Positions 2,812-14,400 of a DNA stretch of 50,223 nucleotides are shown here, one piece after another. The notes beneath the pieces were generated by a model. That model searched no databases, was not told the origin of the DNA, and was given only the letters and a program-made list of their open reading frames with translations. The DNA comes from an uncultured Bacteroidota bacterium (GTDB lineage Bacteria; Bacteroidota; Bacteroidia; Bacteroidales; GCA-2748055). The stretch is from the NCBI GenBank assembly GCA_937129385.1, contig CAKZNC010000101.1, forward strand, positions 1 to 50,223. Direction: 5' to 3'. Position numbers and translations under genes: made by a program. The stretch's first letter is position 1; the number at the start of each line of letters is the position of its first letter.

Positions 2812-3673
2812 TGTTCCGCATTGCTTTTATAAACCGTTCTTTGCCGTGGATATCCTTCATCAGCCGGGTGTTAATGAATCCATGATCACTGAATAATTGC
2901 GAGGTCTCCCTTCCAAATTGCTCATTGATCTCTACCCATATTGTCCCGGTCTGCTTCAGCCATTTCTCCGCAAACCTGCCGATCGCCCGGTAATAGAGCA
3001 GCGGATCGTCATCCGGGACATACAAAGCCAGGTCGGGCTCATGATCCGTCACCCGTTTTTCCAAGAATGATTTTTCTCCATGGGTAACATACGGGGGATT
3101 ACTCACAATAACGTCAAACAGTGCTTCCGGCTGAAATGAACCTTCATCCAGGATATCTCCCTGTATGAATTCAGGAACCACCTCATTAATTTCGGCATTT
3201 TTTTTTGCAATGTCAAGTGCGGCCGGGTCCTTTTCAAATGCGGTCACCCTGCTGCCGGGCAATAATGCGGCAAGGGAGATGGCAATGCATCCGCTTCCGC
3301 TTCCAATATCAATGACCCTGGGTGAAGGATGTTTTGTTTCCAGGAGTATATTGGATACCAGTTCCTCGGTTTCCGGACGTGGAATAAGCACATTTTCATC
3401 CACATAAAACTTCAATTCATGGAATTCTGTTTCTCCAAGGACATATTGTACCGGCCTGTTATTGGTTAATTCGCCTACAATTTTGTTAATTTCGGACTGT
3501 ATTTCATAATCCACAAGCGCCACGGGATCTTTCAGCATGTCAGTTTGAGGGTATCCGAGATGCTCAAGGATCAGCCTCGAAACGGACACGGCCTCATTTC
3601 CCGGGTAAAGATCTGCCAGGGAAGCGATAAGGTCTCTCCTGACCTCGGAGATTCTGGCAGGAAGATTGTTCAT
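2804..3673 (-). CDS. prmC: Release factor glutamine methyltransferase PrmC (HemK)
   Basis: PrmC uses S-adenosylmethionine to N5-methylate the glutamine of the GGQ motif in release factors. The 289-residue protein has an N-terminal helical substrate-binding part, the LIPRPETEELV segment before the methyltransferase core, the SAM loop VIDIGSGSGCIAISLA, and the catalytic NPPY (VSNPPYVTHGEK). The frame extends upstream to 3781 but that stretch overlaps ribD. ATG 3673 (MNNLPARISEVRRD) gives a family-like N terminus and leaves 26 bp to divergent ribD. It is followed by recX with overlapping ends. Confidence 0.92.
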   Translation of the reverse strand: MNNLPARISEVRRDLIASLADLYPGNEAVSVSRLILEHLGYPQTDMLKDPVALVDYEIQSEINKIVGELTNNRPVQYVLGETEFHELKFYVDENVLIPRPETEELVSNILLETKHPSPRVIDIGSGSGCIAISLAALLPGSRVTAFEKDPAALDIAKKNAEINEVVPEFIQGDILDEGSFQPEALFDVIVSNPPYVTHGEKSFLEKRVTDHEPDLALYVPDDDPLLYYRAIGRFAEKWLKQTGTIWVEINEQFGRETSQLFSDHGFINTRLMKDIHGKERFIKAMRNNV

Positions 3674-3699
3674 ATTGTAAAGATAAGGATAAAGTTTTG

Positions 3700-4755
3700 A
3701 TGAATTCAGCAGACGAAAAATACATGCGGCGATGTTTTGAACTGGCATCACACGGAATGGGAAGCACCCAGACCAATCCACTTGTTGGCTCGGTGATCGT
3801 CCGCAACGATCGCATCATCGGGGAGGGATATCACCATGAATACGGCGGACCACATGCCGAGGTGAATGCGATCAGGAGTGTCAGGGACAAGTCCTTGCTG
3901 GAAGAATCAACCATCTATATCAACCTGGAACCCTGTTCACATTTTGGAAAGACACCGCCCTGCAGTACTTTGATCCTGAATCATAAGATCCCTCGCGTTG
4001 TCGTTTCCAACGCCGATCCGTTTCCCAGTGTAAGCGGAAAAGGAATTGCAGCCCTGAAAGATGCGGGGGTGGAAGTGCATGTGGGAGTGCTCGAAGAGGA
4101 GGGGAGATATCTGAACCGGAGGTTCCTCACTTTTCACGACCGTAAACGTCCTTATATTATTCTGAAATGGGCGGAGACCGCTGATGGTTTCATTGACATC
4201 GAACGCCAGGAAGATACAGCTGTTGGAACGAACTGGATCACCGACCAGGTGGCCCGAACGCTTGTGCATAAGTGGAGGTCCGAGGAATCGGGTCTGCTGG
4301 TGGGAACAAATACCATCATTGCCGACGATCCAAAACTGAATGTAAGGCGCTGGGCCGGAAGCAACCCACTCAGGATCGCCTTTGACAGGAACGGGCGTGT
4401 GCCGGAGACAGCTAATATCCTGGATAATAGTCAGGACACCCTCGTATTTACCTGCACCCAGGAAAAGTTCTCAGGAAAAACGAAAAGCGTCCTGATCGAC
4501 CATGATTATGACTTGATGGATGTGCTGACCGAATTGTATGATCAGAAGGTGATCTCTGTCCTGGTAGAGGGAGGAAGACAGATCCATCATACATTTATTA
4601 CAAGCGGCTTGTGGGATGAAGCCAGGGTGTTCAAAGGAAACATCAACTTCACTGCCGGGGTGAAGGCACCACACATGGACAGGTTGCCGGTGGAGATCAT
4701 TGAATTTGAAGGAAGTGAACTGAAGATCTTCTATAACACAGACAATGAACGATGA
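3700..4755 (+). CDS. ribD: Bifunctional riboflavin biosynthesis deaminase/reductase RibD
   Basis: RibD carries out two steps of riboflavin synthesis: deamination of the pyrimidine ring, then NADPH-dependent reduction of the ribosyl side chain. Residues 1 to about 145 form the deaminase domain with the zinc motif HAEVNAI and the PCSHFGKTPPC cluster. Residues from about 150 onward form the reductase domain, starting RPYIILKWAETADG, with VGTNTIIADDP and VLVEGGRQ. Length (351 residues) is normal. The ATG at 3700 is preferred to the TTG codon just before it. The divergent spacing to prmC is only 26 bp, so promoter elements must overlap the neighbouring gene starts. Confidence 0.93.
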   Translation: MNSADEKYMRRCFELASHGMGSTQTNPLVGSVIVRNDRIIGEGYHHEYGGPHAEVNAIRSVRDKSLLEESTIYINLEPCSHFGKTPPCSTLILNHKIPRVVVSNADPFPSVSGKGIAALKDAGVEVHVGVLEEEGRYLNRRFLTFHDRKRPYIILKWAETADGFIDIERQEDTAVGTNWITDQVARTLVHKWRSEESGLLVGTNTIIADDPKLNVRRWAGSNPLRIAFDRNGRVPETANILDNSQDTLVFTCTQEKFSGKTKSVLIDHDYDLMDVLTELYDQKVISVLVEGGRQIHHTFITSGLWDEARVFKGNINFTAGVKAPHMDRLPVEIIEFEGSELKIFYNTDNER

Positions 4756-4762
4756 TAAGAAA

Positions 4763-4795
4763 TTTGGCAATTGATCATCTAAAAATATACCTTTG
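4763..4795 (+). promoter_or_regulatory. Bacteroidota-type promoter of the caspase-like/SpoIIE operon
   Basis: A -33 TTTG at 4763-4766 is separated by 21 bp from TACCTTTG (4788-4795), a full match to the -7 consensus TAnnTTTG. Transcription should start a few bases downstream, leaving a leader of about 60 bases before the ATG at 4863. Confidence 0.7.
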
Positions 4796-4862
4796 TGTAA
4801 ATCACAGGGATACAGGTAACCTGGTACGGAAAAATGCGTAAAAAAAAGCAAAACGAGCAGCT

Positions 4863-7202
4863 ATGAAACGAATTATACCCATTTTGGTCCTGCTGATCAC
4901 CGGGGGAATGGTCTTTGGGCAATCAGCAAGGAAGTATTTCAAAGCGGGAGAGGATTTCCTCGAAGTACACAAATACAAGGATGCGATCAGCCAGTTTAAT
5001 AATGCACTAGAACTTGATCCTGAATATGATAAGGCATATATCGCCCGTGCGAGAGCCTATGAGCGGCTGGACGATTTTGATGCAGCAGCTGAAGATTACG
5101 AACGGGCACTTGTTTTTGACCAGGACGACGAGGAGGTGAACTACCTTGCCGGGCGTGCCTATTTCAAGGCCGGGAACAATGGTGCGGCCCTTGCTAAACT
5201 GAACAAGGCCATCCAGGAAAAATCCAGCTATGTGGAGGCATACCAGGAACGAACACAGGTGTACATTGAACTCGGTCGATACGATGATGCACTTGACGAT
5301 TGCAAAAAGGCTTTGCGGTTCAAGGAGAACGAAATGAACCTCTTTTACCTTGGCAAGGTATATGAAAAGCTGGACCTCCTCGAGCAGGCTGAGGAGGCAT
5401 ACCAGAAATCGATCCGGAAGAACAGCAAGGTGACCGATACCCACCTTGCCCTTGCTAAACTGGCCTTCAAGAGGGAAAAATACGATATGGCCATGGCGTC
5501 TGTTAATGAGGCACTGGGGATCAATTCCCGATCAAAGGATGCCCTCATGCTGCAAAGTTCCATTAATGCGAAACAGATGAATCTTCCACAGGCCATCAAT
5601 AACATTTCAGTGGCCCTGAATCTTTACCCGGGAGATCCTGAATTGCTCATCACCCGGGGGGATTTTTACCAGATGATGAGCCGGCATACGGAAGCGATTG
5701 TGGATTACACCTATGCACTGGAGACGGGCAAAGCTCCTGCCGAAGTCTACTTTAAGCGTGCCCGTTCATACGAAGCCATGAGGAATTTCCCCCAGGCAAT
5801 GAATGATTACGACAAGCTGCTGGAGTTATCCGAATACGACGGAAATGCCCAGAAGCTTCTCGCGGAGGCTGAGAATCGTATGTTCGAGATCAACAGGGAA
5901 GATGATAAACCAGTGGTTTCATTGCTAAATCCTGTTTCCGGTGCCGACAGGACGGTGAATGTTCCTAAGAACCAGGAAGTGATTTCGCTGACCGGACTGG
6001 TGAAGGATGAAAGTGATATTAAAACGCTTAAAATCAATGATTTCACTGTTATTCCTTCAGCAGTGGAAGAGGGATATGAATTCCTGGCCAGCATCAACCT
6101 CAGGGATACCGATCAGATCACGGTTGAAGTGAGTGACGTGTATGACAATTCAGAAACGGCTGTATTTAATATTCTCAGAACCGAAACAGAAGCTCCCGAT
6201 GTGAGGATCATCGCTCCGTATGCCTCAGATAACAATGTGATCTACCTGGATACAGACGACCCGGTGATTTACGTGGAGGGAAAGATCTCTGATGAGAGCA
6301 AGATCAAATCCATCTATATCGATGACATCGCTGCCAGTTATGTGCCCTCCGATATCAACCCGGTGTTTTCAGCCAGGGTCAGGGTGGAGAACAGGGGTAA
6401 ATTCACCGTAGTGGCTGAAGATGCTTATGGCAACAGGTCAGATGTGGATTTTACACTGAATCGGGAAGCATCCAGTTACAGTGACAATCCCATGGGAAAA
6501 ACATGGGCCATCTTTATCGAGAATTCAAATTACCAGTTTTTTGCGAGCCTGGAAGGACCGACAAAGGACATTACCCTGATGAAAACAGCCCTGGCAAAAT
6601 ACCAGGTACATAATTTCATCCATAAGAAAGACATGACCAAAGAGGAGCTGGAGCGTTTCTTTGCCATCGAGTTGCGCGACCTGCTCCGGAGCAACAGGGT
6701 CAGTTCCATTATGGTCTGGTATGCCGGACATGGCAAATTTGTGAATGAGACAGGCTACTGGATTCCCGTAGATGCCAAAAGAGATGATGAATTCACCTAT
6801 TTCAATATCAATGCGCTGAAAGCCTCCATGCAATCCTATCCCGACCTGGTGACGCATACACTCGTGGTGACCGATGCATGCGAATCAGGCCCGAGTTTTT
6901 ACCAGGCGATGCGATCAGCAAATGATATCAGGAGTTGTGATGACTGGGAAGCAACAAGGTTCAAGTCCTCACAAGTACTCTCTTCTGCAGGTTATGAACT
7001 GGCCAGCGATGACAGTCAGTTTACCCGGACATTTGCCAATACCCTTGCCAACAACCCCGATTCCTGTATACCCATTGAAAGTATCGTGCAGAAGGTGACT
7101 ACAGCAGTGACCGGCAACAACCAGCAGAAGCCTCAATTTGGGAAGATCGCCGGACTGGAAGATGAAAATGGTACCTTCTTCTTCATTCCGAAAGATTATT
7201 AA
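4863..7202 (+). CDS. Secreted TPR-repeat protein with C-terminal caspase-like (peptidase C14) domain
   Basis: The product has 779 residues. A signal peptide (MKRIIPILVLLITGGMVFGQS) is followed by an array of tetratricopeptide repeats (about residues 22-345, with repeated A..DYE.AL and YLAG.AY patterns). Two Ig-like segments follow (about 350-440 and 445-535; both contain VKDES or ISDES turns). A caspase-like domain occupies about 545-779, with the catalytic histidine in WYAGHGK (His623) and cysteine in VVTDACESG (Cys673). The two are about 50 residues apart, as in clan CD peptidases. It is probably periplasmic or surface located. The next gene, a SpoIIE-phosphatase sensor, begins 2 bp after its stop, so the two are surely cotranscribed. 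Substrate and role are unknown; a protease or a scaffold in a signalling pathway are both possible. Confidence 0.85.
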   Translation: MKRIIPILVLLITGGMVFGQSARKYFKAGEDFLEVHKYKDAISQFNNALELDPEYDKAYIARARAYERLDDFDAAAEDYERALVFDQDDEEVNYLAGRAYFKAGNNGAALAKLNKAIQEKSSYVEAYQERTQVYIELGRYDDALDDCKKALRFKENEMNLFYLGKVYEKLDLLEQAEEAYQKSIRKNSKVTDTHLALAKLAFKREKYDMAMASVNEALGINSRSKDALMLQSSINAKQMNLPQAINNISVALNLYPGDPELLITRGDFYQMMSRHTEAIVDYTYALETGKAPAEVYFKRARSYEAMRNFPQAMNDYDKLLELSEYDGNAQKLLAEAENRMFEINREDDKPVVSLLNPVSGADRTVNVPKNQEVISLTGLVKDESDIKTLKINDFTVIPSAVEEGYEFLASINLRDTDQITVEVSDVYDNSETAVFNILRTETEAPDVRIIAPYASDNNVIYLDTDDPVIYVEGKISDESKIKSIYIDDIAASYVPSDINPVFSARVRVENRGKFTVVAEDAYGNRSDVDFTLNREASSYSDNPMGKTWAIFIENSNYQFFASLEGPTKDITLMKTALAKYQVHNFIHKKDMTKEELERFFAIELRDLLRSNRVSSIMVWYAGHGKFVNETGYWIPVDAKRDDEFTYFNINALKASMQSYPDLVTHTLVVTDACESGPSFYQAMRSANDIRSCDDWEATRFKSSQVLSSAGYELASDDSQFTRTFANTLANNPDSCIPIESIVQKVTTAVTGNNQQKPQFGKIAGLEDENGTFFFIPKDY

Positions 7203-7204
7203 TT

Positions 7205-10200
7205 ATGAGATCGATCCAGCACCGGAAAATTATTCGTCTTCAAAGGCGAATAATTTTTTTATTCCTGCTGTCGCTGCCGGCAGCAGCGATCCCACAGCAA
7301 TACTATTTTGATGAATACAGCGTGTCAGAAGGACTGGCACAGTCGACTGTATACAGTGTCATACAGGATCGTGAAGATAATTTCTGGCTGGGTACGCAGG
7401 CCGGAGTATCAAGGTTCGACGGGGTCTCTTTCCAGAATTTCACTGCTGAGGATGGATTGACTGAAGGTGGCGTAAGGGCTGTATTTGAGGATTCATTTGG
7501 AAACATCTGGATGGGTCATGAAGGGGGTGGGGTAACCCGCTACAATGGGAACAGATTTGAGATACTGGAACAGACCGAACTCCATATTCACAGTACCATC
7601 ACGACCATCATCGAGGATGCCAGTCAAAGTCTCTGGATCACCTCCCAGGAATCGGGAGCTGCCATGTTAACAAACCCGGAGGCTGCAATCGATTCAATCA
7701 GGTATGAGATGTTTGTCGGCCGGCGCCTGTCTGACCGGATCTTCGGGAGCCTGGTTACCCCAGACGGCTCCCTCTTTTTTGTAACCGATCCCGTTGTAAA
7801 GAAATTTAATCGCGACAGCCTGGTGTTCGAAAACCTGGACCTGAACGGGATCCCTAAATTTTTTGCCACCACCTCGATCATGGAAGATAGCCGGAAAAAT
7901 TTCTGGTTTGGAACATACCACGGGGGGTTGTTCAGGTACCTTCCTGAATTGAATGATACAAAAATGTACGACCTGATCAAGATGGGGATGACCTCCAACT
8001 GGGTGAGTGCATTGTACGAGGACCGTTACGGGAATATCTGGATCGGAACATGGGGAGGGGGTGTTGGCAGACTGGATCCTGATGAAAATTTCACGGTCTT
8101 TGACAGCAGAAACGGGATGCCCGGGAGTAAAATATGGAATATCATGGAGGACGAAGAGGGCAATGTCCTCTTTGGAACAAATGAACATGGGATGTGCGCT
8201 TACAAAGGAGACTATTTTGTCTCCTGGTTTGAAGATGACGGACTGGTCAATCCACAGGTCTTTGCCATAGAGCAGAGCAGTGACAGGTCATTTTGGCTGG
8301 GTACAAATAATGGCATATCGATATTGCAGCCTGGTGAAAAGGGGAGCAGCATCGAAGCCTTTGGTAAGCTTCCCGGCGTTAGGGTGAGGTTTATCTGTGA
8401 AGACCAGAATGGGAGTATATGGATTGCTGCGGAGGGTGAGGGTGTGTTTACATGGTCAAAAAACGGGAATTTCAGATTTGAGCCCATGATCAACAGCAAT
8501 ATCCCGCTTGGTCAGATCACAGCCATGGAGGTGGATGGCGACAACAACCTGTGGATCGGTACCCTGGATGGACTTGTCTACTATGAGATCGATAACCGGA
8601 AGATCAGTCGGCTGACCCAGGTGAGCGGGCTCGAAGGCAGCGAGATATCTGCGGTATATCCAGACAGTAAAGGGCGGATCTGGGTTGGGATTGAGGGAAA
8701 AGGGGTGAATGTGATCGAAGGATCTACATTTACAACACCTGATCTTGGGATCACGGTGACACCCACCTGTTTCACTGAAGACAGGGACGGCATCATCTGG
8801 ATGGGAACCGAGGGCAGGGGACTGATCGCTTACAGTGAAACTGAAAATAAGGTGGTCAAACATCTCACGGTGAGTAACAGTGGTTTGCTGGCCAACCTGA
8901 TCAACCTGCTGAATTGTGACCAGAACAACTATATTTACATAGGCACAAACCGGGGTCTTAATAAATATGACCAGCAGAATGACAAACTGTTTGCTTTCAC
9001 ACGAAAAAGTGGATTTGTAGGAATCGAGACCAAACAAAATGCAACTTGCCTGGACGAGCAGGGGAAGGTGTGGTTTGGTACAGGTCTCGGGGTGACGCGG
9101 TATGATCCTTCATTGAAGCCACGTGATGTGATTGAACCCCTTACCCACATTACGGGACTGATGGTCAACTACAAGCCCTATCCTATTGAAGAGAACATGA
9201 AGCTTTCCTATCGTCAGAATTCCCTGATCTTTGACTATCGCTGCATCACCCTGAATCCAGATGCAGTACAGTACCAGATCATGCTGGAAGGGATAGATAT
9301 CGATTGGAGACCTCCGGGTACACAGACCCAGGTGAACTATCCCTCACTGCCACCAAAGAAGTACACGTTCTTCGTTAAAGCCAGGAACAGTGACGGTGTT
9401 TGGAATGATCAGCCGGTGTCACTTAGTTTCCAGATCAAACCGCCCTTTTATATGACCTGGTGGTTTATCCTCTCCTGTATTGCAGCACTATTCGGACTGA
9501 TATTTACATACATCAAGGTGAGGGAAAAGGCCCTCGTAAGGGAGAACCGGGTCCTGGAAGATAAGGTCAGGGCAAGGACCGCCGAAGTGGTGGCCCAGAA
9601 GGAGGAGCTTGCGCAGAAGAACAAGGATATCACTGACAGCATCAGGTATGCAAAGCGGATCCAGTTTGCCATCCTTCCCCCCAGGTCACCTTTCCCGGAT
9701 ACGTTTATCATGTTCAAACCGAAGGACATTGTCAGTGGTGATTTTTACTGGTTCACCGAAGTGGAAGGAAGGGAGTATATTGCTGTAGTTGATTGTACAG
9801 GACATGGTGTCCCCGGTGCGTTTATGTCGATCATCGGGCACAATTCACTGAACAAGATCGTCAACCAGTATGGCATCCTGGAGCCAGGGAAGATCCTTTC
9901 GCAGTTGAACAGGGAAGTTGTTGAAACGCTGCACCACACAAGCGATGACGGGGATGTATATGATGGCATGGATCTCTCACTGATCGCCTTTGACAGGAAG
10001 AAGATGAAGATCAGCTATTCAGGTGCTTACAATTCGATGTACCTGGTCCGGGAAGGCAAGCTAAATGAAGTGAAGGCCGATCGTCAGCCGATTGGCCTGG
10101 CCGGAGGAGAGGAAAAGACCTTTCAAACGCAGGTTGTTGAGGTGAAAAAGAATGACATGGTCTACCTTTTCTCTGATGGCTATGCCGATCAGTTTGGTGG

Positions 10201-10366
10201 TGAAAAGCTCAAGAAATTCAAATCCAGGAACATGAAACAGCTTTTAGAAAAGATTGCTGATCAGCCTGTGAAAAAGCAGCGGGACATCCTGGATAAATCA
10301 ATTGAGCAATGGCGTGGGGATGTGGAGCAGATTGACGATATATTGGTTATTGGCCGGAAGTTCTGA
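7205..10366 (+). CDS. Regulator-propeller / Y_Y_Y sensor with SpoIIE-type PP2C phosphatase
   Basis: A 1053-residue membrane sensor. After a signal peptide comes a long series of two-component-regulator propeller repeats (about 30-660), with recurring DxxGNIWIGTxxGG patterns such as YEDRYGNIWIGTWGGGVGRLD. Next is a Y_Y_Y domain (about 670-745, with YQIMLEGIDIDWRPPG). One membrane helix lies around 752-772 (WWFILSCIAALFGLIFTYI), then a coiled coil (VLEDKVRARTAEVVAQKEEL). The cytoplasmic phosphatase has the metal motifs PKDIVSGDFYW, DCTGHGVPGAFMS and LFSDGYADQFGG. The family architecture usually ends in a histidine kinase; here it ends in a Ser/Thr phosphatase. The ligand is unknown. The 3' end overlaps the convergent LOG gene by 20 bp. 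Confidence 0.9.
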   Translation: MRSIQHRKIIRLQRRIIFLFLLSLPAAAIPQQYYFDEYSVSEGLAQSTVYSVIQDREDNFWLGTQAGVSRFDGVSFQNFTAEDGLTEGGVRAVFEDSFGNIWMGHEGGGVTRYNGNRFEILEQTELHIHSTITTIIEDASQSLWITSQESGAAMLTNPEAAIDSIRYEMFVGRRLSDRIFGSLVTPDGSLFFVTDPVVKKFNRDSLVFENLDLNGIPKFFATTSIMEDSRKNFWFGTYHGGLFRYLPELNDTKMYDLIKMGMTSNWVSALYEDRYGNIWIGTWGGGVGRLDPDENFTVFDSRNGMPGSKIWNIMEDEEGNVLFGTNEHGMCAYKGDYFVSWFEDDGLVNPQVFAIEQSSDRSFWLGTNNGISILQPGEKGSSIEAFGKLPGVRVRFICEDQNGSIWIAAEGEGVFTWSKNGNFRFEPMINSNIPLGQITAMEVDGDNNLWIGTLDGLVYYEIDNRKISRLTQVSGLEGSEISAVYPDSKGRIWVGIEGKGVNVIEGSTFTTPDLGITVTPTCFTEDRDGIIWMGTEGRGLIAYSETENKVVKHLTVSNSGLLANLINLLNCDQNNYIYIGTNRGLNKYDQQNDKLFAFTRKSGFVGIETKQNATCLDEQGKVWFGTGLGVTRYDPSLKPRDVIEPLTHITGLMVNYKPYPIEENMKLSYRQNSLIFDYRCITLNPDAVQYQIMLEGIDIDWRPPGTQTQVNYPSLPPKKYTFFVKARNSDGVWNDQPVSLSFQIKPPFYMTWWFILSCIAALFGLIFTYIKVREKALVRENRVLEDKVRARTAEVVAQKEELAQKNKDITDSIRYAKRIQFAILPPRSPFPDTFIMFKPKDIVSGDFYWFTEVEGREYIAVVDCTGHGVPGAFMSIIGHNSLNKIVNQYGILEPGKILSQLNREVVETLHHTSDDGDVYDGMDLSLIAFDRKKMKISYSGAYNSMYLVREGKLNEVKADRQPIGLAGGEEKTFQTQVVEVKKNDMVYLFSDGYADQFGGEKLKKFKSRNMKQLLEKIADQPVKKQRDILDKSIEQWRGDVEQIDDILVIGRKF

Positions 10367-10964
10367 CCCTGCCGATGTTCGCCTCCACGGCCGCATATTT
10401 GATGGCCTGTGGATCCCAGTCCGGTTCATTTTCAATGCGTTCAATCACTTCTGAGGGATGTGATGCCACCTGCCAGATCTTCCCATGCAGCGGTCGCATA
10501 AAGTGTTCATTGATCATCTCCTCGAAATGCTTTAAAAGCGGATCATAAAAGCCTCCTGTGTTGAGGATGACAATGGGTTTGAGAAATTTTCCCAATTGTT
10601 TCAGTGTGATCGCCTCAAGCAACTCTTCAAGGGTCCCCACACCTCCGGGCATGGAAATGATCGCATCAGCTTTCTCCATCATCAGGGATTTCCGTTCATG
10701 CATGGTATCCACTACAACCAGGTCCTTGAGACCCGGGTGGGCCCAGCCCATCTCCTTCATGAATCCCGGGATGATCCCTGTAACATTTCCGTTGCGGTCG
10801 AGCAGTTCGTCGGCCATCACTCCCATGATCCCTACGGAGCCTGCACCATAGGTCATCGAGATATCCTTTTCTGCCAGTATCCCGGCCATCTCTTTGCCGG
10901 CTTCCAGGTAGCGGTCACTGATTCCCGGACTGGAGGCTGCAAATACACATACATTGCTGATCAT
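10347..10964 (-). CDS. LOG-family (TIGR00730 Rossmann fold) nucleoside-monophosphate phosphoribohydrolase
   Basis: The LOG family cleaves nucleoside 5'-monophosphates at the N-glycosidic bond and includes the cytokinin-activating enzymes. The product (205 residues from ATG 10964) has the signature PGGVGTLEE and the upstream MHERKSLM arginine-lysine motif that together form the active site, plus the nucleotide-binding loop YGAGSVGIMG. The frame extends ten codons upstream, but MISNVCVFAASSPG is the usual family start. It lies downstream of trxA behind a terminator, so it is probably transcribed separately. The physiological substrate cannot be told from sequence. Confidence 0.88.
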   Translation of the reverse strand: MISNVCVFAASSPGISDRYLEAGKEMAGILAEKDISMTYGAGSVGIMGVMADELLDRNGNVTGIIPGFMKEMGWAHPGLKDLVVVDTMHERKSLMMEKADAIISMPGGVGTLEELLEAITLKQLGKFLKPIVILNTGGFYDPLLKHFEEMINEHFMRPLHGKIWQVASHPSEVIERIENEPDWDPQAIKYAAVEANIGRVRTSGQ

Positions 10965-10970
10965 AACAGG

Positions 10971-11019
10971 TAAAATAAAACCGCAGGAGTACATCTGGTA
11001 AAAAATGTCACCTGCGGTT
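10971..11019 (-). terminator. Rho-independent terminator after trxA
   Basis: On the minus strand AACCGCAGG (11019-11011) pairs with CCTGCGGTT (10987-10979), a perfect 9-bp stem with a 23-base loop, followed by a T-rich run (TTATTTTA). It lies 24 bases after the trxA stop. The loop is longer than usual. Confidence 0.7.
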
Positions 11020-11432: not shown

Positions 11433-14400
11433 TTGAATTCCAACTCCGGTGTATCATTTAAAAATGCAATGAACTCCTCATTGAGCTCAACCTGACTGTT
11501 TCTGCTGAAAAGGCTCACTTTCACATTGCTTTCTGGGTCGGTCACATTTATCTTCAGGGTCTTTCCATCCGAGGGGACGGTGTATTTTTCAAGTTCTTTG
11601 ATCAGGTGTTCATTGACAAGGGACAGGGGAACCTGGAGATCTACCGCCTTTACCATCTTTTCTTTTACTTCAGACATCAGGCTGATATGCTTCACCTTCA
11701 GGGAGTAGACCACCTTTCCTGGTTCATCTCTCGGGCGCCATTCATTGACCGAGGCCCTGATCAGCAATGCGATCTCAGGATTGAAAAAATGTTTGAATTT
11801 GATATAATCATCACCCCTGAGCCTGACGGTATAGGATTCGGTAAAATCTTCCATCACTGCCATCAGGTAGGGCTTGTTTCTCCACTGATCCACGGTGTCA
11901 CGAATGGTTTTTACTATTCCGCAGAAGGTGAATTCCCTCCCGGAGAGGGCCTTCAGGTCATTCATTTCATGCAGGTTGGTTGAGCAGAATGAATCAATCT
12001 CAGTTCTGAACCTATCCAGCGGATGGGCGGTGAGGTACATCCCGATCAGTTCTTTTTCCCTGTTGATCTTATCCAGCATATGCCATTCATCGATATCCGG
12101 GGGTTCCGGTTTCGAGATGGTACCCTGATTCATCTCCCCGAACAGGTTTTGTTGTGGGGTATTTTTCTCGTATTGGTGTTTGTTGCCGTATTTGATCAGA
12201 CGTTCAATGAACGTAGCATCATTGTCCTCGACCTCGATGAACTGTCGCCGTGCGATCTCTCCAAGAGAGTCGAATGCTCCTGCAATGGCCAGGCTCTCAA
12301 AAGCTTTTCGGTTGATCGACGAGAGGTTGTTTCTTTCAACAAAATCATAAATATCCAGGAAGTGTCCGTTTTGCTTTCGCTCATCGACCATCATTTCGAC
12401 CGCGGATTCTCCAACACCCTTGATGGCACCGAGTCCAAAACGTATGTCCCCGTCCTTGTTCACTGTAAATTTCAGGTTGCTTTCATTTACACACGGACCC
12501 AGCACTGAGATCTCCATCCGCCTGCATTCATCCATGAAAAGCCCGATCTTCTTGATGTCGGTTATGTTACGGCTCAGAACCGCTGCCATGAATTCGGCCG
12601 GGTAATGTGCTTTCAGGTATGCAGTCTGGTAAGAGACATAAGCATAGCAGGTTGAATGGGATTTGTTGAATGCATATTGTGCAAACGCCTCCCAGTCTTT
12701 CCAGATTTTATCGACGGTCTTTTGTTCGTAGCCATTCTGCTTACATCCCTCGGTGAATTTCACCTTCAGCTCGTCCATCATCTTCCGGATCTTCTTTCCC
12801 ATGGCCTTTCTAAGGGAATCCGCTTGTCCGCCGGAGAACCCGGCAAGTTTTCTTGACAGCAACATCACCTGCTCCTGGTAGACAGTGATCCCGTATGTGT
12901 CTTTCAGGTATTCCTCCATCTCAGGCAGGTCATATTGGATCTTTTCCTGGCCGTGTTTTCTCCGGATGAAACTTGGTATATATTCCATCGGTCCGGGTCT
13001 GTAGAGCGCGTTCATGGCGATCAGGTCCTCGAACCGGTTAGGTTTCAGGTCCCTGAGATGCTTCTTCATTCCGGCCGATTCAAACTGGAACAGTCCGGTC
13101 GTATCTCCCCTGGCATACAGTTCAAATGTCAACTGATCATCAAGGGGTATATTTTCAACATCGATCGTTTTCCCGGTTGATTCCCTGATGTTCTCCAGCG
13201 TATCTTTGATAATGGAAAGCGTCTTCAGCCCAAGGAAGTCCATTTTCAGCATGCCCACATCCTCCACATGCTTTCCATCGTACTGGGTCACGAGGAGATT
13301 CGATTCCTTGGAGGTGCAGATCGGGATCTCCTGGGTAAGGTCGTTTCTCCCGATGATGATTCCGCATGCATGCAGTCCGGTTTGGCGAACCGATCCTTCC
13401 AGGGTTTCAGCGAATTTCAGCGTGTTGACGACCAGCTGGTTTTCAGACAGTTTCTCTTTCCTGAGCTCTTCTACCTCCTCAAATGCCTTTTTCAACGAGG
13501 TGCCGGGTCTTTCGGGGACCAGCTTCGCCAACCTGTCGGCCTCCGGCAGTGGAAGCTTTTGGATTCGTGCCACATCCCTGATGGCCATTTTTGCTGCCAT
13601 TGTTCCAAAGGTGATGATGTGGGCCACAACATCATGACCATATTTCTCCACCACCCATTTCAATACCAGGTCGCGACCATCCTCGTCGAAGTCGATATCG
13701 ATATCAGGCATTGAGATCCTGTCGGGATTCAGGAATCGTTCAAACAGGAGGTCATACTTGATCGGGTCAATGTCTGTAATCTTCAGGCAATAAGCGACTG
13801 CAGAACCGGCTGCAGATCCCCTGCCGGGCCCCACAGATACGTTCATCTCCCTGGCCGCAGCAATGAAATCCTGTACGATCAGGAAATATCCCGGGAAGCC
13901 CATTCTCCTTACTGTGTTCAACTCGAAATCAAGCCGTTCTCGCAGCTCATCGGAGATTTCGCCGTACCGCTCTTCAGCCCCCTCATAGGTGATGTGCCTG
14001 AGGTAATCATCTTCGTTTTCAAAATCTTCCGGTATGCGGAAGATCGGCATGATCGGCTTAGAACTCAATTGGTATTCCTCTACCTTTTCAGCGATCTCCA
14101 TGGTGTTCTGAAGGATGTCCGGAATATCACTGAACAGATTCCGCATCTCTTCCTGTGTCTTCAGCCATTCCTGGTGGGTATACCTCATCCGGTTCGGATC
14201 CTCGAGGTCCTTCCCGGTACTCAGGCAGATCAGGTGGTCGTGGGCCCCGGCATCCTCTTCATTGATGAAGTGTACATCATTTGTTGCAATGCACTTGATC
14301 CCGAGCTTTTTACCGAGCTGCAGCAGGGTCTTGTTCACATAAACCTGGTCGTCGAATACCTTCCTGTCCATCTCCGGATCATTGGTCTGATGACGCATCA

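Follow-up and report, generated by a model that had tools for sequence, protein, structure and literature searches.

A caspase-like protein and a propeller-PP2C receptor phosphatase encoded as a gene pair in Bacteroidales

The window analysed here, a stretch of 50,223 nucleotides, is the entire contig C101 (CAKZNC010000101.1) of the genome of an uncultured bacterium of the Bacteroidales (GCA_937129385.1; 4.28 Mb in 236 contigs), and it carries two adjacent genes, whose products we call P1 and P2. P1 combines a TPR array, an Ig-like region and a caspase (C14) domain behind a signal peptide, and P2 is a receptor phosphatase in which a two-propeller sensor is joined through a transmembrane helix to a SpoIIE/SiaA-type PP2C domain. 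The two genes, 2 bp apart behind one promoter, probably form one operon, and their adjacency extends beyond close relatives and recurs between divergent homologues of both partners. We give an even chance to the reading that the operon encodes an envelope-to-cytoplasm signalling unit, in which a signal would pass from P1 to the P2 sensor, from there to the PP2C domain and on to a target encoded elsewhere.

Adjacency of the two genes

A first-pass annotation of this DNA had placed the two genes 2 bp apart behind a full-consensus promoter, and both points hold: the open reading frames (ORFs) lie exactly at the positions it gave (Table 1), and a pattern scan located upstream of P1 the element TTTG-21 bp-TACCTTTG, which we take to follow the Bacteroidota promoter consensus. 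On both strands together the window matches TTTG-N17-23-TAnnTTTG twice, this element being one of the two, and a scan for sigma-70-type promoters gave no plus-strand entry in the intergenic stretch upstream of P1. In a set of named relatives described below, 59 of 78 loci carry TAnnTTTG within the 170 nt that precede P1, compared with 133 of 1,560 random stretches from the same loci, a soft control since these stretches are mostly coding; the full two-part pattern is found in 1 of the 78.

The gene order in the bacterium's own family is prfA, recX, prmC, ribD, P1, P2, (log), dnaE, as far as the contigs reach; in the window the ribD-type gene ends at 4755 on the same strand, and a convergent LOG-family gene (10347-10994) overlaps the end of P2 with its own end. 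Because these flanks are syntenic throughout the family, adjacency among close relatives is uninformative, and we rejected it as evidence of linkage. We therefore relied on wider samples, in which a simple longest-ORF rule served for gene calling. One of them comprises named P1 loci retrieved by two peptide patterns, one holding GHG, and is limited to the best 80 of 240; these come mostly from Bacteroidales or Bacteroidetes metagenome-assembled genomes, some of which also occur in the other genome samples of this analysis. P2 is the next gene downstream of P1 in intact form in 59 of these loci, cut by a contig end in 8 and split or partial in 4, while it is missing in 6 and the contig ends too soon in 3. 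Both usual flanks are absent from their usual place in six of the 59 (L128, L160, L161, L175, L185 and L187), dnaE lying on the upstream side instead in L187, the locus of the named strain Plebeiibacterium marinum.

In a draw of 197 genomes from the order, 24 score 334 bits or more for a caspase domain of the P1 type; in one of them, G455, the regions read show it solely as a bare caspase. At least 22 of the 197 genomes have a P2 orthologue, and all 22 are within the 24 caspase-positive genomes, with at most four candidates scored per genome and among the matches listed. Orthologues are here 21 proteins at 969 bits or more and a shortened one in G511, a threshold set after the scores had been inspected; the next scores run from 878 bits, and several of these proteins are caspase-paired as well (L264, L266, L257 and L268). 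The P1-type genomes without a P2 orthologue, among the matches listed, are G009 and G539. Outside the close group, P2 adjoins the caspase gene in 17 of 22 P1-type regions (20 genomes), once split in two frames, and in 9 of the 17 the 6-15 kb read include no gene from a set of six flanking markers. In a draw of 395 genomes from the phylum, with two candidates scored per genome shown, P1 was found at 1e-60 in one, the window's own genome, and P1 therefore appears to be confined to some Bacteroidota lineages.

The pairing also recurs beyond P1 itself. A propeller-PP2C gene is first or second downstream of 11 of 80 divergent exported caspases, and by slot a same-strand P2-like gene stands at +1 in 9 of 76 and at +2 in 2 of 71 cases, against 0 of 351 in slots -4 to -1, +3 and +4. 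Four of the 11 (L089-L092) were chosen after their adjacency had been seen, and to the detriment of the case the count without them is 7 of 76; the other regions (16, and 58 places from the order draw) were taken blind to adjacency, the 58 covering part of the matches of that draw. The neighbourhood on which the first-pass annotation had staked its proposal is thus conserved beyond close relatives and met again with divergent paralogues.

In a tree of 64 propeller-PP2C proteins, 28 of them paired, the paired ones form two clades separated by unpaired proteins, the first with 19 rows, 17 of them paired (Shimodaira-Hasegawa-like approximate likelihood ratio test, SH-aLRT, 100), and the second with 11 rows, all paired (SH-aLRT 81). 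This tree needs at least 4 changes of pairing versus a mean of 21 for shuffled labels, and a caspase tree of 103 rows needs 11 versus a mean of 25, 5 of them forced by well-supported branches. Both are quick trees without bootstrap, the long branch of L090 and L091 makes their placement unsure, and the caspase tree carries a warning of long branches meeting. The small number of changes relative to shuffled labels shows that pairing is heritable and has either arisen more than once or been lost several times.

The scaffold around the caspase domain varies. P2 is preceded in L223 and L225 by the gene for a bare exported caspase of 261 or 263 residues with neither TPR nor Ig, so that the caspase domain is the constant partner. 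Among the caspases paired with the second receptor clade, that of L259 carries WD40 repeats, that of L240 has a weak CARDB match that stays below the cut-off, and those of L257 and L264 have long N-terminal parts that match nothing in Pfam. The common theme is a protease domain beside a receptor.

Some further arrangements were noted. A tandem duplication of P1 lies ahead of P2 in L081 (G015:C153, 3037-8872), and in L128, L135, L146, L147 and L185 a bare caspase (258-270 residues), with a signal peptide by eye and intact H and C motifs, is encoded directly upstream of P1. At 12 loci with unpaired caspases of the same clade, where the starts and ends of downstream genes were read without a library scan, no common type of downstream receptor was found, and the idea that these caspases sit beside another receptor type was dropped.

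The two proteins and their catalytic residues

The signal peptide of P1 has no lipobox cysteine, and its Q20 is invariant in a 22-row alignment (A1). The first-pass annotation had P1 secreted as a surface protein; export agrees with our reading, and as to location the protein is best read as periplasmic rather than as a demonstrated surface protein. TPR matches are strong in the Pfam scan, in which the Ig-like region (residues 344-539) gave no match. The caspase family PF00656 was not detected in a scan of whole P1, nor in a six-frame search of the genome, which returned 0 matches, P1 included. The isolated domain reaches 63 bits against this family (E 4.3e-17; cut-off 21.4), so the miss in the six-frame search was a filter loss; scanned as domains only, 13 of 16 alignment members, the window among them, match PF00656 at E 1 or better. 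As a side observation, repeats may hide a domain from filtered scans, the P1 caspase having been missed twice. The AlphaFold2 model of P1 has a mean predicted local distance difference test score (pLDDT) of 84.6 and a predicted template modelling score (pTM) of 0.48, with pLDDT below 50 at residues 674-684, next to the catalytic cysteine, and at 710-716. Searches with the whole model (Foldseek, VIA-align) returned the TPR part in all of the best 50 rows, and a sequence search of the PDB with the caspase domain gave weak matches to MALT1 paracaspase only (E 0.04 and worse). P1 falls outside the EACC1-associated caspases (NF047832; 37.7 bits against an NCBIfam cut-off of 140), and PADLOC returned no useful defence model, only a PrimPol match within the P1 TPR array.

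The residues that the first-pass annotation proposed as catalytic, His623 and Cys673, are borne out by the motifs GHG (from residue 622) and DAC (from residue 671), and the TPR array it described is likewise there. D671, just before the catalytic cysteine, presumably fits a pocket for basic residues as in metacaspases (Arg/Lys specificity). H623, D671 and C673 are kept in 80 of 80 rows of a P1 alignment (A3; the window and 79 relatives), where the histidine count is biased because one of the two retrieval patterns contains GHG; in A1, whose rows were found without that pattern, H623 and C673 are invariant in 22 of 22. Both residues are kept in 21 of 22 P1 proteins of the order sample, with the motif variants YSGHG in L214 and L218 and DACEAG in L224. 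Mean identity to the window in A3 is 75.5% for the caspase domain, 45.7% for the Ig-like region and 38.0% for the TPR array.

On the P2 side, Pfam detected Reg_prop (4.7e-50), Y_Y_Y (4e-11) and SpoIIE (1.6e-18), and the AlphaFold2 model has a mean pLDDT of 87.5; the N-terminus is a hydrophobic helix, either a signal peptide or an anchor. Six aspartates of the PP2C domain (D846, D863, D923, D991, D1044 and D1045), among which we presume the metal ligands to be, are invariant in 60 of 60 rows of a P2 alignment (A4). As far as these alignments tell, the catalytic residues are intact on both sides in nearly all relatives. The first-pass annotation described P2 as a transmembrane protein with an extracellular propeller and a cytoplasmic phosphatase; its domains stand, and the propellers are better placed in the periplasm, since P2 models onto the periplasmic domain of BT4663.

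Table 1. Positions of the gene pair, its promoter and its domains in the window
Feature	Coordinates	Strand	Basis
Bacteroidota-type promoter: -33 TTTG, 21-bp spacer, -7 TACCTTTG	4763..4795	+	pattern scan
P1, exported protein with TPR, Ig-like and caspase (C14) parts, 779 aa	4863..7202	+	ORF, Pfam, AlphaFold2
P1 signal peptide, residues 1-20	4863..4922	+	by eye: charged start, hydrophobic run, then Q20
P1 TPR superhelix, residues 22-343, 19 helices in model	4926..5891	+	Pfam and model
P1 strand-rich Ig-like region, residues 344-539	5892..6479	+	model
P1 caspase domain, residues 545-777, best-conserved part	6495..7193	+	PF00656, alignment A3
P1 catalytic His623 codon	6729..6731	+	sequence, alignment A3
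P1 catalytic Cys673 codon	6879..6881	+	sequence, alignment A3; D671 two residues earlier also invariant
P2, receptor phosphatase, 1053 aa	7205..10366	+	ORF, Pfam, AlphaFold2
P2 two beta-propellers, residues 33-640, periplasmic by homology	7301..9124	+	Pfam, PDB sequence and fold matches
P2 Y_Y_Y domain, residues 684-745	9254..9439	+	Pfam
P2 transmembrane helix, about residues 752-775	9458..9529	+	by eye; model helix 752-787
P2 helical linker to phosphatase, about residues 776-830	9530..9694	+	model
P2 SpoIIE/SiaA-type PP2C phosphatase	9710..10363	+	Pfam, PDB matches, six invariant Asp

Proposed signalling by the pair and alternative explanations

Because the membrane separates the PP2C domain from P1, the sensor is the one part of P2 within reach of P1, and P2 cannot dephosphorylate P1; this makes an order from P1 to P2 the likeliest and most economical. 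P1 would work in the periplasm as a catalytically active cysteine protease, of the caspase/metacaspase type, carried by a TPR/Ig scaffold. After P1 has been engaged or switched on, it or a cleavage product that it generates would act on the propellers of P2, a receptor phosphatase that is probably a dimer as SiaA-PP2C is; the propellers may read this signal, and the membrane helix and helical linker would then switch the SiaA-like PP2C domain. The change in activity might lead to dephosphorylation of a SiaC/STAS-type protein encoded elsewhere. A narrower version, which we consider rather unlikely, is that the exported caspase is the activating protease of the receptor, cleaving its periplasmic part or making a peptide ligand and so switching PP2C. 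If true, this would be a bacterial caspase-based protease-activated receptor, present in two receptor clades of Bacteroidota with TPR-Ig, WD40, unassigned and bare caspase scaffolds.

It is conceivable, although somewhat doubtful, that the two genes share merely a promoter and a condition of expression and serve separate processes, such as turnover of envelope proteins by P1 and glycan sensing by P2. The syntenic flanks of close relatives, the frequent retention of P1 after loss of P2, and the 69 of 80 divergent caspases that are unpaired all fit such co-transcription. It accounts less well for the lack of all six usual flanking genes in 9 of the 17 pairs found outside the close group, for the restriction of the divergent pairs to two downstream slots in one orientation, for two separate receptor clades, and for the nesting of P2 presence within P1 presence in the order draw, among the matches listed. 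It seems improbable that the flow is reversed or parallel, so that P2 detects an envelope signal, operon expression is set by its cytoplasmic output, and P1 works as the effector protease in the periplasm. Such a flow would suit the shared operon, and SpoIIE-type phosphatases commonly control sigma or anti-sigma switches; however, P2 is unable to dephosphorylate P1 across the membrane, the P1 dyad is kept where P2 has been lost, and no STAS, SiaB, SiaC or HATPase_c_2 match occurs on the contig, where sigma factors were not searched for. That the caspase is a scaffold without catalysis, with the TPR array as the part that matters, is very improbable: one paired orthologue, L222, has indeed lost the histidine, but the caspase domain is far better conserved than the TPR array, the dyad is present in all 80 rows of A3, and in L223 and L225 neither TPR nor Ig stands beside P2.

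Several observations weigh against a signalling unit of P1 and P2. P1 stays beside dnaE with P2 missing between them in G009, G014, G018, G020 and G024 (L075, L080, L083, L084 and L086), genomes that hold only distant P2 paralogues, and G539 (L206) likewise has P1 without P2. In G452, G454 and G459 a copy of P1 lies apart from P2 (L215, L217, L221 and L226), which is found elsewhere in the genome, and the P2 orthologues L290 and L291 are not beside a caspase in genomes that do have P1. Of the divergent caspases, 69 of 80 have no P2-like gene within two genes. In the P2-paired L222 (G570, 4843-7239) GLG replaces GHG, with Leu in place of the catalytic His. The contig holds no match to STAS, SiaB, SiaC or HATPase_c_2 either. 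The link between P1 and P2 is not obligatory. From the first-pass proposal of a surface signalling unit, conserved adjacency and a dyad kept nearly everywhere survive, the loss of His in L222 being the exception, and the surface location does not. Separately, L222 is a candidate for a naturally inactive form, and its genome holds six further caspase-domain matches.

The first-pass annotation had suggested a look for anti-sigma or STAS partners nearby, and the four families searched on the contig gave no match; a cytoplasmic partner would therefore act in trans. The genome contains 8 matches to SiaC, 5 to SiaB (4 over the cut-off) and 4 to STAS, all on other contigs, and these proteins are possible targets of P2. 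On C42 (37678-39367) genes for a SpoIIE phosphatase, SiaB and SiaC stand in a row as a SiaABC-like cluster, so such pathways exist in this genome. Three SiaC copies lie close together on C43, and on C146 two SpoIIE domains fall in neighbouring open frames of 1152 and 278 residues (9016-10586), with a SiaC match at 13030-13377 on the opposite strand. A further propeller-PP2C gene of the same genome (L309; C198:1-12000, 3307-10029) follows a PorP/SprF gene (PF11751, 1.4e-31), a PD40-PKD gene and a 337-residue gene without a Pfam match. A trio of similar sizes (about 300-345, 467-493 and 319-356 residues), recognised by size only, precedes propeller-PP2C homologues in 15 other regions (L294-L298, L301-L307, L310, L313 and L317), and clusters of this kind are perhaps a receptor phosphatase module linked to type IX secretion.

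Little is known of what bacterial caspase homologues cleave, and surveys, in the portions available to us, treat mostly cell death and diverse guesses. Here the arrangement of the genes assigns to an exported caspase a definite partner, a receptor whose output in the cytoplasm is defined, and makes its function testable; the receptor itself represents a class that joins a sensor built like those of hybrid two-component systems to a PP2C phosphatase.

Comparison with known systems

The first-pass annotation knew of no description of the pair as a system, and our full-text literature searches likewise brought up no paper that describes a caspase paired with SpoIIE or PP2C. The propeller repeats of P2 resemble those of PorZ (5M11; target template modelling (TM) score 0.32), with 92.9 bits in NCBIfam, under the PorZ cut-off of 260; PorZ has, to our knowledge, no PP2C domain. 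A closer likeness is to the periplasmic sensor of the hybrid two-component system BT4663 (4A2L, 4A2M), with two propellers and a Y_Y_Y domain, which P2 matches at 9.2e-58 by sequence and a target TM of up to 0.81 by fold, its periplasmic location following from homology only. The output of BT4663 is a histidine kinase with a receiver, whereas that of P2 is a SpoIIE/PP2C phosphatase.

This phosphatase is of the type of SiaA from the SiaABCD system of Pseudomonas aeruginosa (6K4E), in fold and in its presumed metal-binding aspartates: P2 residues 779-1053 align with it at 8.5e-39, with a target TM of 0.88-0.89 and 32% identity. P2 differs in having the two-propeller sensor and in having neither siaB nor siaC beside it, the matches listed sitting on other contigs, and it stays below the SiaA equivalog NF038263 (201.9 against a cut-off of 700), which it matches over the PP2C region and linker only. 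SiaA acts on SiaC phosphorylated at T68, opposing the kinase SiaB, according to the part of the study consulted (PMC7647112).

P1 shares the C14 domain and the His/Cys dyad with prokaryotic metacaspases and orthocaspases, and differs from them in being exported and linked to a receptor phosphatase. In the available part of a metacaspase survey, TPR_1 is recorded in 47 and TPR_2 in 39 of the surveyed sequences, and 23 operons are reported in which a metacaspase occurs with domains for signalling, sensing or regulation; the words phosphatase, SpoIIE, propeller, periplasm and two-component do not occur in its main text (PMC3501461). The accessible portion of PMC4933709 holds nothing on a caspase-receptor phosphatase pair. 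P1 and P2 are, on this comparison, a new pairing of known parts, between which a functional link is likely.

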